Source of the DNA: a virus
Direction: 5' to 3' (one strand)
DNA: 40,705 nucleotides
Virus record (IMG/VR): IMGVR_UViG_3300036781_000819
Span: 1-40,705 of that record
In this document: positions 2,436 through 15,941 of the stretch, in pieces
Layout: each line of letters starts with the position of its first letter
Position numbering within the stretch: position 1 is the first letter of the stretch
Notes under the pieces: model-generated
The model's input: only the letters and a program-made list of their open reading frames with translations
Told to the model about the DNA's origin: nothing
The model's database searches: none
Program-made: the position numbers and the translations under genes

Positions 2436-2693
2436 TCACGCATCCTTAGGCCTCTCGCCGCAGGTCAGCATGATCGGTGGATGCGTGACGCCGAGCAGGC
2501 GGACATGGATCGGCGCGCCGGCGATCAGGGCGGCCAGCTCGTCGGGCGTCGGAAACCAGGCCGTCACCATCGACGGCGTGCGGGGGCCGTTGACGGGGCA
2601 GTCGATTTGTTCGTCCCGCAGCGGCAGGCCGAAGTAGCCCTGCGACTGGCCGATGACGCGCGTGGCGTTGGCGATGCGCCCTATCTCCATCAT
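2436..2693 (-). CDS. Hypothetical phage protein
   Basis: An 85-residue soluble protein containing the phrase PTPDELAALIAGAPIHVRLLG, a beta/alpha pattern of unknown function seen in short phage ORFs. The gene overlaps the stop of the ParB-like gene (ATGATGG). Two adjacent ATGs exist, at 2693 and 2690; the second has the better distance from the upstream GAGG and would form a TGATG junction. Both junctions indicate translation within the leftward operon. No catalytic residues can be named. Confidence 0.6.
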   Translation of the reverse strand: MMEIGRIANATRVIGQSQGYFGLPLRDEQIDCPVNGPRTPSMVTAWFPTPDELAALIAGAPIHVRLLGVTHPPIMLTCGERPKDA

Positions 2694-3859
2694 TCCACCT
2701 CAGCCGGCTCGGCGGCATCGTCCTCGACTTCCCGCGCAGCGCTGCTGCGCGCGGCCTCGAGCTGCCTGTCGACCACGTCGCTGCGGATGTAGGTCGCCTC
2801 CATGGCGTCCTGGAAGTTCCACAGCTTGACCTCGGACGGCGTCAGGCTGTCGCCTTCGCTGCCCCAGGTGACGCTGACGAACTCCAGCGGCACGTCCTTC
2901 AGCGCCTTGTGATGGTGATGCAGCTGTCGCGGCTGGGCGCTCGGCAGGGTGCCGGTGAAGCCGCGCACGCTGTGCGTCGATCGCGTCGCGCCGGCGGCCG
3001 TCTTGCCGCCGCCGGCGATCGTCACCTTCGCGTCCGCCATGTTCGCCGCCCTCGGCTGCTGCAGATGCTCGCGCGCCTGGGTGAAGCTGATCTGCCCCTT
3101 GCGCAGCTGTTCCTTCATGTCGTCGGGCAGCTCGGTGGCGATCCGGCGATGCTGCTGCACGAAGCCGACCTTCTTCCTGATCAGCGCGGACAGGCTCTTG
3201 TTGTCCCATATCTCGGTGTCGGTCTTGGCCAGGTTCTCCAGCCATTCGCCGATCTCCAGCGGGGTCAAGTCCTCACGATGGATGTTCTCGGCGAGGGCGA
3301 TGACGGCCGCACGCTGGTCGTTGGCCTCGATCACCTTGCAGGCCATCAGGGCGCCCTGGGGCCAGCGCTTCTGCTCGACGAGCAGATGCGCGGCGCGGAT
3401 GCGGCGCTCGCCGGCGAGCAGCTCGACCATCGGGCGGCCGTCGTGCGTGCCGCCGCCGGTGGCGCGGACGACGAGGTTTTGCAGCTGGCCGTCGGCGAAC
3501 ATCTCGTCGGCCAGGCTGGCGATGCCTTCGGCGTCGAAATGCTTGCGCGGATTCAGGCTGTCGGGTCCGCCGAAGTAGATCTGGTCGAGCGCGAAATATT
3601 CGCCGCTGCCTGTCGCGTCGGCTGCCGGCGGCTGCTCGATCTCCAGCAGCCACCACAGCGGCTTGCCGAGCACCGGCGCCAGCTTGCGGTAGGTGTCGAG
3701 CTGCGGCTGGCCGCCGGCCATGATCAGCGACACCTGGCCGTTGGCGATGGCGGCGTCGCGCTCGATGGCGCGGCCGGACTTGCCGCCGTTCTGCGCCGCC
3801 TGGATGGCGCTTTGCAGGTTCGAGGCTGTCTCGTCGGGCTGGGCAGTCGTGGGCACCAT
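2690..3859 (-). CDS. ParB/RepB/Spo0J-family DNA-binding protein
   Basis: A 389-residue protein with a ParB N-terminal domain. The CTP-binding box GERRIRAA is present within LLAGERRIRAAHLL, followed by AENIHREDLTPLEIGEWL, the usual ParB segment. A short N-terminal helix-turn-helix-like region (SGRAIERDAAIANGQVSLIM) precedes it, and a second possible HTH (IRKKVGFVQQHRRIATEL) follows the ParB core. The open frame continues upstream of 3859, but the ATG at 3859 has GGAGA seven bases before it, and upstream residues are Arg/Pro-rich shadow sequence. No ParA partner lies in the window, so plasmid-style partitioning is unlikely; a regulatory or replication/recombination role is more plausible. The C-terminus is acidic and low in complexity. 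Confidence 0.85.
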   Translation of the reverse strand: MVPTTAQPDETASNLQSAIQAAQNGGKSGRAIERDAAIANGQVSLIMAGGQPQLDTYRKLAPVLGKPLWWLLEIEQPPAADATGSGEYFALDQIYFGGPDSLNPRKHFDAEGIASLADEMFADGQLQNLVVRATGGGTHDGRPMVELLAGERRIRAAHLLVEQKRWPQGALMACKVIEANDQRAAVIALAENIHREDLTPLEIGEWLENLAKTDTEIWDNKSLSALIRKKVGFVQQHRRIATELPDDMKEQLRKGQISFTQAREHLQQPRAANMADAKVTIAGGGKTAAGATRSTHSVRGFTGTLPSAQPRQLHHHHKALKDVPLEFVSVTWGSEGDSLTPSEVKLWNFQDAMEATYIRSDVVDRQLEAARSSAAREVEDDAAEPAEVE

Positions 3860-3894
3860 GGTCGTCTCCAGGGGATCGTCTGTGGGAGGAGGGG

Positions 3895-3968
3895 CGCCGC
3901 CGGGCGGATGGGGGGAAACGCCCGGCGGCGGGGGTCGGTCGGCCAGAACCGGGGGGCTTCGGCCGACC
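3895..3968 (-). promoter_or_regulatory. Tandem RNA hairpins between DUF2303 and ParB-like genes
   Basis: The 119-base gap between the two genes holds two inverted repeats. CGCCGCCGGGCG (3895-3906) pairs perfectly with CGCCCGGCGGCG (3919-3930), a 12-bp stem with a 12-base loop. GGTCGGCC (3937-3944) pairs with GGCCGACC (3961-3968). Neither is followed by a U-run on the minus strand, so these look like attenuation, mRNA-stability or processing elements, not simple intrinsic terminators. Confidence 0.55.
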
Positions 3969-3978
3969 GGGGGAAGCG

Positions 3979-5061
3979 CTAGGCCGACATCTCCGGCGCG
4001 CCGAGGTAGAGCGGCAGCTTGGTTTCGTCGACGACCTGCTTGCAGGTTTGCTTGAAGGCATGGTCGAAGGCCTTGTCGTGTCGGTAGAGCTCGAAGAACC
4101 AGATGATCTGCGGACCGTCCTTGCGATAGCGCAGTCGCACGGCGATGCGGTAGCGCGGGCCGTCCAGGAAGATCGGGATGGCGATCAGGAACAGGTTGGG
4201 CACCTTGAGCTTGGCGCCGGTCGCGTCCTTGTGCTCGCTGGCGAAGATGAACTGCGTCTCGCCGCTTTGCAGCATCTCGGCGTTGGTCACGGTTTCCGAG
4301 ACATGGACGGTGAGGCCGCGCGACAGTTCCATCAGCCGCTGCGGGCTGGCGAAGCTGCCGCCGATGGTGCGCACAAGGTAGGCGAGCTCTTCGTCCGGCG
4401 TGCGGTCGCCGAAGTCGCCGCCGGCGGTGGCGGCGGCGATCTCCTCGCCCTCGCGATAGGCGATCCCGGGCGGCGCGAAGATCACGTCGGCGATGCGGTC
4501 CTCGATGAACTTGGCGAAGTCGCCCTGGCTCATGGACTTGGCGTTCTGGCCATTCCACTCCTTCCACTCGTCGGACAGCGGATTGGGGTAATGGGCGCGG
4601 TGCTTGCCGAAGCGCGGCGCTCCGGCCGGGCCGGGACGGTTGTAGTCGTACACGGCGGTGATCGACGGCCGGTTGCGATCCTGGCAGGCGAAGACGACGC
4701 TGTGCTCGTCCTTGAAGGCTTTGACGTGTTCAATCAGGCTGTCGAGGTTCGTGAAGCTGGCCGAGCCGACCTTGCGCTCGGGCGCCTGGCGGTACTCGTC
4801 GATGAACGGCTTGGCGCTCTTCAGGGTCTTGCCCTCAGGCATGATCAGCACCGGCACCGCGTCGCCGGCCACCTTACGCGGCAGGGTGGCGATCTGGGCG
4901 CCGCCGAGCTTCTCGACGTACTCGGTGACTTCGCCGAATCCGGAGAGGTGGGTGGCCTGGGGCGCGGCAATGCAGGAAAGCGCGGCCGCGCCGGACGGGC
5001 TGTCGTCGGGGGTGGGGGTGGCGGCTGTCTTGGTGGTCTTGGTCATGGACGGGTCTTTCAT
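3979..5061 (-). CDS. DUF2303 (YfdQ-like) phage protein
   Basis: A 360-residue protein resembling the phage DUF2303/YfdQ family. Recognisable family segments are FNTL-like SASFTNLDSLIEHVKAF, then YDYNRPG, WKEWNGQ, and the late FIFASEHKDATG and VPNLFLIAIPIF stretches. The family is widespread in tailed phages next to recombination or partition-like genes, and its biochemical role is not established. The first 35 residues are Thr/Pro/Ala-rich and probably disordered; a second ATG at 5046 (MTKTTK) could be the true start. It is the largest gene upstream of the ParB-like protein and is separated from it by structured RNA. Confidence 0.78.
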   Translation of the reverse strand: MKDPSMTKTTKTAATPTPDDSPSGAAALSCIAAPQATHLSGFGEVTEYVEKLGGAQIATLPRKVAGDAVPVLIMPEGKTLKSAKPFIDEYRQAPERKVGSASFTNLDSLIEHVKAFKDEHSVVFACQDRNRPSITAVYDYNRPGPAGAPRFGKHRAHYPNPLSDEWKEWNGQNAKSMSQGDFAKFIEDRIADVIFAPPGIAYREGEEIAAATAGGDFGDRTPDEELAYLVRTIGGSFASPQRLMELSRGLTVHVSETVTNAEMLQSGETQFIFASEHKDATGAKLKVPNLFLIAIPIFLDGPRYRIAVRLRYRKDGPQIIWFFELYRHDKAFDHAFKQTCKQVVDETKLPLYLGAPEMSA

Positions 5062-7364: not shown

Positions 7365-8105
7365 TCACTCCCTCCTGACGCTTTGGATGACCAAGGCGGA
7401 AATTATCAGGTCTGCTTCGCCTGCGTCATGTCCCATGTCTCCGGCGCGTGCGACGGACGGCAGGTCTTCGTAGCCGCCGACCGCAACGGTATTGTCAGGC
7501 AGCACGAAAGGCTGCTGAAATTCGGGCTCAGTCGACCTTGGCCAGAGGACATGGCGACCTTGCGTGTCGACCTGGTATTCCTTCACGGTCGCTTCGAAGC
7601 TGCCGTGCCGGTCGCGGCGAAGGCAGATGACGCGCTCGCCGTGCTTCGGCAACCTAGCGATGTCGCCATATCGAACGCAGATGACGACGGTGCCTTCCGG
7701 ATAGAGCAGGTTCATCGAGGGGCCGCGCACCTCAAGGCCGAAACGTTCGATGCCAGGATAACGCTCGTCGGTCGGAACGGTGAGCGCATACCAGTTCTCG
7801 CCGTCCCATTCGATGGCCTCGCGCCAGGCGCCGGCCTGCACGTCTCCGCGCACGAAAACGTGCTCGATCTGAATGTCGCGCAGTTTGTCATCCGTTTCGG
7901 CCTCGATCACCTCGGTCAGGTATTCCTCCGGCACGCGGATGGCCCTGGCGAGCTTCTTCAAGCGGTCGACCTTCTGGCTGTGGTCGCGCTTGATGAGGCG
8001 GATGGCTTCGGTGCCGAGCCCGGCGGCGAGGCTCGCTTCGCGCTCGCTCATCCCGATTTCCTTCAGCCGCTTCTGGATGCGGTCGAGAAGTCGTTGATTT
8101 TTCAT
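7365..8105 (-). CDS. CI-type repressor with S24 (LexA-like) self-cleavage domain
   Basis: A 246-residue phage repressor. The N-terminal HTH lies at about residues 18-55 (MSEREASLAAGLGTEAIRLI). The C-terminal S24 domain has the Ala91-Gly92 cleavage site (VQAGAW), Ser130 in RGPSMN and Lys175 in ATVKEY, the full catalytic set for RecA-stimulated autocleavage. It should hold both early operons silent in the lysogen and release them on DNA damage. The ATG at 8105 directly abuts operator 3, and a TATAAT hexamer begins eight bases upstream, so the mRNA is probably leaderless; no SD is present. The frame is open further upstream but would run through the operators. Confidence 0.92.
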   Translation of the reverse strand: MKNQRLLDRIQKRLKEIGMSEREASLAAGLGTEAIRLIKRDHSQKVDRLKKLARAIRVPEEYLTEVIEAETDDKLRDIQIEHVFVRGDVQAGAWREAIEWDGENWYALTVPTDERYPGIERFGLEVRGPSMNLLYPEGTVVICVRYGDIARLPKHGERVICLRRDRHGSFEATVKEYQVDTQGRHVLWPRSTEPEFQQPFVLPDNTVAVGGYEDLPSVARAGDMGHDAGEADLIISALVIQSVRRE

Positions 8106-8121
8106 GCGGATAATTATACGC
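8106..8121. promoter_or_regulatory. Repressor operator 3
   Basis: GCGGATAATTATACGC, with one mismatch from the palindrome. It touches the repressor start codon and contains the repressor's TATAAT -10, so occupancy would switch off repressor synthesis (negative autoregulation). Confidence 0.75.
8113..8118 (-). promoter_or_regulatory. Repressor (pRM-like) promoter -10
   Basis: A perfect TATAAT on the minus strand, seven bases before the repressor ATG. The -35 region is weak (CCGACA at 8134-8139 with a short 15-base spacer), as expected for a promoter helped by a neighbouring bound repressor. Transcription should begin at or very near the A of the start codon. Confidence 0.7.
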
Positions 8122-8140
8122 AAGCCCACTTTTTGTCGGT

Positions 8141-8156
8141 GCGGATAAATATCCGT
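8141..8156. promoter_or_regulatory. Repressor operator 4
   Basis: GCGGATAAATATCCGT, one base from consensus. It lies just upstream of the rightward -35 and in the upstream region of the repressor promoter, 35 bp centre to centre from operator 3 and 23 bp from operator 5. Confidence 0.78.
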
Positions 8157-8184
8157 TGACGGTGCGGATAAATATCCGCAGTCT
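8156..8184 (+). promoter_or_regulatory. Rightward early promoter (pR-like)
   Basis: TTGACG (8156-8161) matches the leftward -35, and operator 5 fills the spacer. The -10 (CAGTCT at 8179-8184 with a 17-base spacer) is poor. Transcription would start near 8190, a few bases before the ATG at 8193, again giving an almost leaderless message. Confidence 0.55.
8164..8179. promoter_or_regulatory. Repressor operator 5
   Basis: GCGGATAAATATCCGC, identical to operator 2 and placed inside the rightward promoter in the same way that operator 1 sits in the leftward one. Confidence 0.8.
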
Positions 8185-8192
8185 CCGCGCCC

Positions 8193-8456
8193 ATGGATTA
8201 TCGCCAACAGCTCCTCACGCTCGCTGCCGTCTACGGGACGGCCACCTGTCGATCCGAATCCAGGATTTCGACCTTGGTTCATAATTCCGGGGTCTTTTTC
8301 GCGCGTTTGCGCGGAGGGAAAGGCTGCTCGGTCGACACATACCTGAAATTCAAGCGCTGGTTCTTCGACAACTGGCCCGCCGATGTTGCCTGGCCCGAAG
8401 GGGTCGACCGGCCTGAGGTGCTTCCTGACGTGCTGCCGGATGGAGAGGCCGCATGA
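8193..8456 (+). CDS. Cro-position small regulator (putative DNA-binding)
   Basis: An 87-residue protein divergently transcribed from the repressor across the shared operators, the place of Cro. Residues 20-55 (SRISTLVHNSGVFFARLRGG and following) read as a helix-turn-helix, with the ARLRGGKGCS-type turn seen in short alphaproteobacterial phage and chromosomal regulators; the C-terminus is acidic and Pro-rich. The ATG at 8193 has no SD, in keeping with a leaderless or near-leaderless transcript. The gene ends in an ATGA overlap with the next. Cro function is inferred from position and size. Confidence 0.6.
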   Translation: MDYRQQLLTLAAVYGTATCRSESRISTLVHNSGVFFARLRGGKGCSVDTYLKFKRWFFDNWPADVAWPEGVDRPEVLPDVLPDGEAA

Positions 8457-14292: not shown

Positions 14293-14486
14293 ACGCCGCT
14301 GTCATCGACCGTGACGTCGCCTTGACCGTCGGCTTCTGGAAGGCCGACGGGCTCACGCCGGCGGAGGCCTGGGACGCCCTCGGCGGCTCCGCGCTGCGCC
14401 TCGTCGTCACCTGGGAAAATGTTCAATCGCTCGCCGGCCTGCGCATGGCCGAGATGCTCGTCTTCCGCCACGAAAGGGCCTCGTAA
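14289..14486 (+). CDS. Small hypothetical early protein
   Basis: A 65-residue protein of helical character (TPAEAWDALGGSALRLVVTW). It starts in an ATGA overlap, and its TAA shares a base with the ATG of the replication gene (TAATG), so it is coupled to it. No family is recognised. Confidence 0.6.
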   Translation: MNAAVIDRDVALTVGFWKADGLTPAEAWDALGGSALRLVVTWENVQSLAGLRMAEMLVFRHERAS

Positions 14487-15409
14487 TGGCCGATACCGCG
14501 TTGCCCGAACCTCTCACGCCGGCGAACTGCGACCTGCGCGACTTTCCCTTCATGCCGCTGGAGGTCAAGCGGCTGTTCGCGTCCGAGTCCTGGATCCTGG
14601 GCACGGGCGAACAGCGCGCCGCTGCGCTCGCCCTCTGGCTGGAGAGCTGGCACCAGGTGCCGGCGGCGAGCCTGCCGGAGGACGACCGCATGCTCGGCCA
14701 CCTCGCGCAGGCGAAGAACTGGAAGCGGGTCAAGGACCATGCCATGCGCGGCTGGGTCCGCTGCGCTGACGGGCGCCTCTATCACGCCGTCGTCGCCGAG
14801 AAGGCGCTCGAAGGCTGGATCGAGAAGCTCCTGACGAGCCATGCGGGCGCGACGGGCAACGCCAAGCGCTGGGAGATCACCATCGACATCGCCGGCATCG
14901 AGACCGAGATCATGACGGCGGTCAGTCTCCTCCGGGCGATTGCGCCCCGATCCAAGCTCCTGCGCAAGAAGGCCGTCGCGACCATCGCGGCGCGATCCGC
15001 AAACGATCCCCCCGGACGCTCCGGAGCATCGCCCCCGATATCCCCCCCGATATCCCCCCCGATATCGCCCCCGAATGGGGGTGGGATCGCAAGAGAAGGT
15101 GAAGGGATTATCTATGGAAGAGAAGTTAATGGATTCCAGACTGAGAGAGACACGCACGCGCGTGGGCGCGGCGCGGGAGACGAGCCCTCGGCGCACGGCG
15201 TGCGCGGGGGAGAGATCGCAGCATCCAGCCAGTCTCGGCCGACCCAACATCGCAACGAACCGGGAGACGACCATGGGCACCATCGCCGCCAGGGTGGGCA
15301 GTCAGCCTTCGCCGCTGCAGCTGCCGCCGCCAAGGCTGACCGCACTCGGGTTGACGCCGATCCTCGCCCGGATGATCGGTCTGACCCCGCCGACCTGGGT
15401 GACGAGTGA
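14486..15409 (+). CDS. DUF1376-family replication protein, initiator-like
   Basis: The N-terminal 90 residues match DUF1376 (YdaU-type): DLRDFPFMPLEVKRLFASES, then GEQRAAALALWLESWHQVPA and LPEDDRMLG. Such proteins sit at the place of lambda O and contain winged-helix folds. Residues about 170-195 are a (SPPI)3 repeat encoded by a 12-bp DNA repeat, followed by GlyGlu-rich and His/Arg/Ala-rich sequence likely to be disordered. The gene overlaps the next by 137 bases, unusually long, so the last 60 or so residues may be non-essential or reflect a frameshift. One copy of the 17-bp palindrome lies inside (15191-15207). Confidence 0.75.
   Translation: MADTALPEPLTPANCDLRDFPFMPLEVKRLFASESWILGTGEQRAAALALWLESWHQVPAASLPEDDRMLGHLAQAKNWKRVKDHAMRGWVRCADGRLYHAVVAEKALEGWIEKLLTSHAGATGNAKRWEITIDIAGIETEIMTAVSLLRAIAPRSKLLRKKAVATIAARSANDPPGRSGASPPISPPISPPISPPNGGGIAREGEGIIYGREVNGFQTERDTHARGRGAGDEPSAHGVRGGEIAASSQSRPTQHRNEPGDDHGHHRRQGGQSAFAAAAAAAKADRTRVDADPRPDDRSDPADLGDE
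15033..15150. other. Candidate phage replication origin (iterons plus low-GC stretch)
   Basis: Three GATATC cores at 15037, 15049 and 15061, each flanked by C-runs, repeat exactly every 12 bp. They are followed by a CCCCC-gaat-GGGGG inverted repeat (15068-15081) and then by a purine-rich stretch, 15091-15150, where 24 of 60 bases are G or C against a strongly GC-rich background. Iterons inside the initiator gene next to a low-GC, strand-asymmetric segment is the arrangement of the lambda origin in gene O. Function is inferred from layout. Confidence 0.5.
15191..15207. repeat. 17-bp palindromic repeat, copy 2
   Basis: Identical to 6600-6616 and 28488-28504 (GCGCACGGCGTGCGCGG). It lies within the low-complexity end of the DUF1376 gene, 40 bp after the candidate origin's low-GC stretch. 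Confidence 0.8.
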
Positions 15410-15941
15410 TCCCTGGCCGGTTCCGCGCCGCGCGCCGGACAAGCCGCTGTGCGACGAGATCGCCGAGGCCCTGCGCCTTCACCGCGAGGATCTGATCGCG
15501 GCGGGCGAGGTCGCCGTCATCGAGCGGCTGGAACGGCTGTCGAAGCACACCTGGCATCCTGACCGCCCTGTTGAGGACTTCCGCGCGCTGATCGACGACT
15601 TCGCGGCAGACCTGTCGGGCTTCTCGGCCAGCGTTCTCGATGAGGCCGTCGCCGAGTACCGGCGCGCGAACCGATGGTTTCCGCACGTCGCCGACCTGAC
15701 GGCGATCTGCAAGCGCCTGACGACAGAACGTAGCCGGCGGCTGTGGCGGCTGGAGCGCGTGCTGTGGGCCAAGGCCGAGATGGGGCGCAAGGCCGAGACC
15801 GGCGGTTATCAGAGCTACACGCTCGAACAGAAGATCGAGCACCACCAGATGATGGAAGGCTACTGGCGCGAACGAGGCGACCTCGACCGCGTCGAAGCCG
15901 AGCGCCTTGCACGGGAGACGTTGCTTGCTCAAAAGAGTTGA
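15273..15941 (+). CDS. Putative replication helicase-loader-like protein
   Basis: A 222-residue helical protein in the place of lambda P, directly after the initiator-like gene. The core (about 75-150) includes HTWHPDRPVEDFRALIDDFA, LDEAVAEYRRANRWFPHVAD and LTAICKRL, a pattern seen in phage proteins that prepare or load replication proteins. The start at 15273 has GGGAGA six to seven bases upstream; the frame is open further back with an alternative ATG at 15114. No Walker motif is present, so it is not an AAA+ loader of the DnaC kind. The role is inferred from position and weak similarity. Confidence 0.55.
   Translation: MGTIAARVGSQPSPLQLPPPRLTALGLTPILARMIGLTPPTWVTSDPWPVPRRAPDKPLCDEIAEALRLHREDLIAAGEVAVIERLERLSKHTWHPDRPVEDFRALIDDFAADLSGFSASVLDEAVAEYRRANRWFPHVADLTAICKRLTTERSRRLWRLERVLWAKAEMGRKAETGGYQSYTLEQKIEHHQMMEGYWRERGDLDRVEAERLARETLLAQKS

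Follow-up and report, generated by a model that had tools for sequence, protein, structure and literature searches.

The DNA analysed here, a stretch of 40,705 nucleotides from the IMG/VR virus record IMGVR_UViG_3300036781_000819 (the window), was found to carry an ORF for a DUF1376 protein that contains in its middle a run of 12-bp repeats and a purine-rich tract, and that is overlapped at its 3’-end by a second ORF, designated ORF2 (Table 1). The DUF1376 ORF matches PF07120 (E 3.4e-8, 34.2 bits against a curated cut-off of 30.1) as well as PHROG replication and primosomal families. No function is formally assigned to DUF1376, which occurs commonly in proteobacterial phages and prophages. Terminase genes follow the locus within 2-4 kb. 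On the minus strand, 1-1614 encodes an integrase with an invertase-like match, a probable large serine recombinase, and 2690-4567 is a ParB-like gene. The repressor ORF (7365-8282, minus strand) includes at its 5’ end, in an A/T-rich dip, two 23-bp direct repeats, TTGACGGTGCGGATAAATATCCG (8133-8178), which are probably repressor operators. The ORF at 9699-10226 matches phrog_4786, ‘cysteine dioxygenase’ (E 8e-54), an unusual cargo in a phage early region.

Table 1 Features of the DUF1376 locus in the window.
Feature	Position	Strand	Evidence
DUF1376 protein ORF, proposed origin-binding initiator	14486..15409	+	PF07120; PHROG
DUF1376 domain, proposed iteron-binding	14546..14803	+	Pfam residues 21-106; AlphaFold
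Degenerate iteron ATCCCCCCGGA	15006..15016	+	1 mismatch to ATCSCCCCCGA
Iteron 1 ATCGCCCCCGAT	15028..15039	+	
Iteron 2 ATCCCCCCCGAT	15040..15051	+	
Iteron 3 ATCCCCCCCGAT	15052..15063	+	
Iteron 4 ATCGCCCCCGAA, final base A	15064..15075	+	
Inverted repeat CCCCC-GAAT-GGGGG	15068..15081	.	Sequence
Conserved boundary ATCGCAAG, iterons to purine tract	15086..15093	+	
Purine-rich, A+T-richer tract, proposed unwinding region	15091..15150	+	Composition; position equals that of the GGGACA tract of relatives
ORF2, possible partner protein	15114..15941 (start 15114 or 15273)	+	Coding signature in its own frame

The DUF1376 domain was modelled by AlphaFold with pLDDT values of 93-95, and its DSSP string, in which helices and strands succeed one another as in a winged helix, suggests that it is winged-helix-like. 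When the trimmed core of the domain was submitted to Foldseek, the top seven PDB matches were all titled initiator, Rep-DNA or DNA-binding; they include 4pta and 4pt7, together with 5kbj and 4pql, which we take to belong to the same study group, and are individually non-significant (E 0.035-0.17, best TM 0.44). The entries 4PTA and 4PT7 represent RepA_N proteins of staphylococci (PMC7145576). This initiator and Rep group was obtained from the trimmed core only, a fold search with a 175-residue model having given no sensible PDB match, and comparison of the protein sequence with solved structures yielded nothing meaningful.

The coding signature in the frame of the DUF1376 ORF fades after about 15030; between about 15060 and 15150 it shifts to the frame of ORF2, where it is present after about 15150. 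Beyond about 15110 the DUF1376 ORF probably does not encode a real protein domain; the C-terminal domain of relatives is absent in the window, and the residues following the iterons match nothing in relatives. The first-pass annotation had expected a loader gene next, and this was not borne out: ORF2 matched no family and is not a recognised loader. It has no close relatives among viral contigs, genome contigs and phages, where only weak matches to Roseomonas plasmids were obtained, and it shows weak similarity to gp16 of Azospirillum phage Cd, which is located at the same position. The gene overlap of the window recurs in that phage, without a clear array, and ORF2 may, as there, be a separate partner protein; to call it a loader would be a guess. 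A frameshift fusing the DUF1376 ORF and ORF2 into one initiator was also considered and is unsupported, since ORF2 is not similar to the C-terminal domains of relatives.

The repeats consist of four tandem 12-bp sites, ATCSCCCCCGAT, at 15028-15075, and a degenerate copy at 15006 that lies 22 bp 5’ of the array and in a different reading frame. Tandem Repeats Finder (TRF) reported 3.9 copies with a period of 12 and a score of 80 (15028-15074). Three GATATC hexamers with a 12-bp period, at 15037, 15049 and 15061, had been noted from the sequence before and taken as the repeated core. They are present as described, but on comparison with relatives GATATC is the junction between sites and is ruled out as the core, because ATCGCCCCCCGAT recurs in relatives without any GATATC; the iteron consensus is ATC(G)CCCCC(C)GAT. 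With up to one mismatch, ATCSCCCCCGA occurs eight times in the 40.7 kb, and five of these matches fall within 15006-15074. The repeat score of the window was reached by none of 400 within-gene synonymous codon permutations and by 5/400 when codons were drawn from genome usage. The short inverted repeat described earlier was likewise recovered at the end of the array, and in the frame of the DUF1376 ORF the repeat does translate as (SPPI)3. The perfect in-frame copies could in part reflect recent slippage. Among the iteron clades, the one found in Burkholderia and Pseudomonas phages is closest to the window. Folding of 15000-15160 as RNA gave z = 0.03, and there was no Rfam match.

The purine-rich segment next to the array was also confirmed: it contains 24 G+C in 60 bases (40%), a value that ranks fourth from the bottom among the distinct 60-bp windows of this GC-rich record (mostly 60-72% G+C per 500 bp), and it adjoins the 60-bp window of highest purine content, which starts at 15073 (0.75). 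The worst-adapted codons among the 18 ORFs of the window are found in a 26-codon window starting at 15071. The boundary between iterons and tract takes the form GATCGCAA in 35 of 117 relatives, and GATCGCAAG is common to window and relatives. The tract itself is irregular and degenerate, without a (GGGACA)n array, and no G4 motif was found in it. The cumulative GC skew along the record, which had been proposed as a check, has no extremum at 15 kb.

For comparison, 117 non-redundant DUF1376 loci were assembled. The stretch following the domain carries short, clade-specific and often palindromic repeats, such as ATCGCCCCCCGAT, TGTCCCNNGGGACA, ATGCCACGGCAT, TCCCGTCGGGA, GTGACNNGTCAC, TTCCGNNGGAAA and ATCCCACAAGG. 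With the purine tract cut away and only the linker upstream of it considered, repeats exceeded synonymous-codon shuffles in 51/84 linkers as against 7/82 control ORF segments. Of 51 significant spacings, 49 are near multiples of 11.4 bp, for which a nominal p value is not to be trusted, because 11.4 bp was picked after the spacings had been seen and the loci are related. Dyads of 5 bp occur in 49% of repeat segments and in 5.5% of shuffles. A tract, significant repeats or both were found at 107/117 loci, a combined count in which the tract itself may satisfy the repeat test, and neither element at the remaining 10. In a random sample of 299 Pseudomonadota genomes, 20 genomes had PF07120 matches. 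Of 20 loci drawn from these, one was masked, and about half of the rest had clear arrays, as assessed by eye and by the test; several loci without a clear array had short ORFs. The layout thus holds for much of DUF1376, without proof that it holds throughout. The proposal that DUF1376 proteins are origin-binding initiators gains comparative support at many loci; not every PF07120 protein shows the layout. At two loci (L017 and L131) the DUF1376 domain is followed by HNH-like sequence in place of the usual linker and C-terminus, and the gene appears to be recombinant or broken.

In relatives, a (GGGACA/GGGAGA)n tract is located directly 3’ of the linker repeats and lies on one strand: GGGA[CG]AGGGA has 183 matches on that strand of 49.6 kb of linker and 2 on the opposite one, against 7 in 1.84 Mb outside linkers. 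All three reading frames are used for the tract, which is translated as GQGQG, TGTGT or DRDRD accordingly. G-quadruplex potential was detected in 38/117 linkers and in 20/1807 control windows. Opposite the GGGACA tract (linkers of L028-L187) a CTG occurs every 6 nt. CTG is the start triplet favoured by E. coli DnaG primase, and the series could be a primer-start array.

The next downstream gene of relatives, chosen by a GC3 rule (n=84), encodes DnaB_C in 18 cases, Toprim_2 in 10, RusA in 7, IstB/DnaC in 4, DnaA in 3 and lambda P in 2. DnaB follows the DUF1376 gene in phi297, and a DnaC-like loader does so in UFJF_PfDIW6.

The repeats might be a mere by-product of a flexible, low-complexity (SPPI)n protein linker produced by slippage, an explanation that is regarded as improbable. 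The perfect copies of the window are in frame with a period of 12, the linker after the domain is rich in proline and serine, and the nearest relatives encode SPPDSPPD, all of which would suit a peptide. Against this, synonymous shuffles seldom reach the repeat score, and relatives keep the DNA repeats while the reading of them changes: one site occurs in two frames (L002), periods are of 11 bp (L018, L020), and the iterons may be reversed (L146). In Paracoccus phage Pben1 (L192:3570-3816) an iteron array (CTGAAATCAACTGAAATGAACTGTAATGATTACAG...) and a GACA-rich tract lie directly behind a short DUF1376 gene and are non-coding. As the tract occurs in three frames, some iterons are reversed and the Pben1 element is non-coding, the conserved entity is the DNA, as the first-pass annotation had supposed; selection acting on a peptide would hardly account for these observations. 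The iterons also go with the DNA-binding domain. Iteron 9-mers are common to both members in 49.6% of the pairs of loci (n=363) that have similar DUF1376 domains (>=70%) but unrelated C-termini, as compared with 11.5% of pairs (n=52) with homologous C-termini and diverged DUF1376 domains and a background of 12.1%. Two loci (L143 and L169) have nearly identical C-termini, different domains and different iterons. Across such natural swaps the iterons travel with the DUF1376 domain rather than with the C-terminus, which is consistent with iteron recognition by the DUF1376 domain and falls short of proof, because common descent of the domain and the adjacent linker can explain part of the 49.6%.

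That the repeats are instead an operator or partition site, bound by the DUF1376 protein for autoregulation or segregation with the origin elsewhere, is also quite unlikely. Phased palindromic arrays are typical of operators and centromeres too, and the window has a ParB-like gene; this gene, however, is 10 kb away, and the repeats are situated not at a promoter but 3’ of the sequence coding for the N-terminus. An origin would suit both the purine tract and the genes for helicase, primase and loader that are neighbours in relatives, PHROGs place the DUF1376 family with replication proteins, and Rac, which has a DUF1376 gene, has a known origin. The proximity of the terminase genes could point to a site for DNA packaging (cos/pac) that the terminase small subunit recognises. 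This is scarcely credible, and such a site was rejected on the gene context in relatives: in phi297, Magia and Rac the DUF1376 gene adjoins repressor, DnaB, DnaC-like or RusA genes and not terminase. More weight, though still well below even, is due to an explanation that concerns the tract alone and under which the iterons may still be real, namely that the purine dip only provides ORF2 with its start and ribosome-binding site. AAGGGA stands 6 nt 5’ of the ATG at 15114 in the ORF2 frame, the ORF2-frame coding signature rises after about 15110, and the tract of the window lacks (GGGACA)n. Yet its position is that of the tract of relatives, the boundary GATCGCAAG is held in common, and about 60 bp is longer than a ribosome-binding site. 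The two roles can coexist, and the tract may also carry the ORF2 ribosome-binding site.

Thus, 15006-15150 is likely to be a theta-type replication origin located within the gene that encodes its initiator, with iterons bound by the DUF1376 domain and a purine tract that is opened. Comparison across relatives strongly supports the core of this proposal, in the layout, the conservation at DNA level and the association of iterons with the domain. From these comparisons, the repeat run inside the DUF1376 gene is very probably the start site of phage replication, and the data suggest that many DUF1376 proteins recognise such a site within the very gene that encodes them, as does lambda O. How the protein would bind, the DNA unwind, the helicase load and ORF2 take part is inferred as follows. 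The N-terminal DUF1376 domain would bind the ATCSCCCCCGAT iterons, which are in phase with the helix; once assembled, the complex would strain the adjoining purine-asymmetric, A+T-richer tract at 15091-15150 until it opens, and the replicative helicase would be loaded there, perhaps with the help of ORF2.

A broader proposal is put forward tentatively, as a possibility somewhat short of an even chance: origin-binding initiators of the DUF1376 type may form a large class, as yet without a name, in which the domain carries the iteron specificity with it, and the conserved (GGGACA/GGGAGA)n tract of GC-rich phages, with its G-quadruplex potential, may replace the A/T-rich unwinding region, capturing a strand or priming by a mechanism undescribed for lambda. 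If DUF1376 proteins are indeed initiators, the sequences of hundreds of phages and prophages would reveal their function, binding sites and origin position, and the swaps of domain plus iterons would allow direct tests of specificity. With the conserved GGGACA tract, the question arises of how an origin is unwound where A/T-rich DNA is lacking. In those parts of the open-access literature naming DUF1376 that were available, no description of it as an initiator was found.

Known systems offer three comparisons. The Rac prophage of E. coli K-12 has an active origin, oriJ (PMC3945230), which none of the sources consulted places within ydaU. Its YdaU protein has DUF1376 in front and a C-terminus of the lambda-O type, with 47% identity to Gifsy-2 O, the front part of which is PF04492. 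As in the window, the DUF1376 domain of YdaU is followed by repeats, here TGTTCAAACA-like, and by a stretch of purines that is rich in A; unlike in the window, the O-type C-terminus is present, and the iteron sequence is different. The YdaV ATPase gene follows the DUF1376 gene.

The RepA_N initiators of plasmids such as pSK41 and pTZ2162 (PF06970) resemble the DUF1376 proteins in having their boxes in the centre of the initiator gene and perhaps in their winged-helix N-terminal domain, which is predicted in the latter. In the pSK41 type, the N-terminal domain binds the central rep boxes, the linker is encoded by the ori and the C-terminal domain is exchangeable; in pPR9 the N-terminal domain was naturally swapped together with the ori (PMC5703833). 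The RepA_N boxes are semi-palindromic direct repeats (PMC7145576). The presence of 4PTA and 4PT7 among the top fold matches of the DUF1376 core is a weak likeness (E >=0.035), and a Pfam scan of the window protein up to E 1 gave no PF06970 match. RepA_N proteins belong to plasmids of Firmicutes, and DUF1376 proteins to phages of Proteobacteria.

A close parallel in layout is the lambda ori in gene O (PF04492), which likewise occupies a central part of the gene for the initiator, 3’ of the N-terminal DNA-binding domain (PMC5043065, PMC7466680), and the iterons of the window are, as in oriLambda, inside the initiator gene and 3’ of that domain. Both systems have phased repeats with inverted symmetry followed by a strand-asymmetric purine tract. 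In the lambda record, the same analysis showed annotated iterons spaced 20-24 bp and then a 41-nt stretch with 73% purine and 22% GC, and the strand asymmetry of this region is known (PMC5043065). The lambda iterons are of 18-19 bp at two turns, whereas those of DUF1376 loci are of 11-14 bp and often at one-turn spacing, and the lambda tract is A/T-rich whereas that of DUF1376 loci in GC-rich phages is of the GGGACA type. Where lambda has the Phage_rep_O domain (PF04492), the DUF1376 loci have the DUF1376 domain instead; Pfam found only the latter in the window protein, and PF04492 was absent. Of the lambda-like layout proposed at the outset, the iterons and purine tract inside the DUF1376 gene stand, and neither a recognised C-terminal domain nor a recognised P/DnaC gene was found in the window. 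The DUF1376 initiator would thus be lambda-like in its working and, by its domain, outside the O family.
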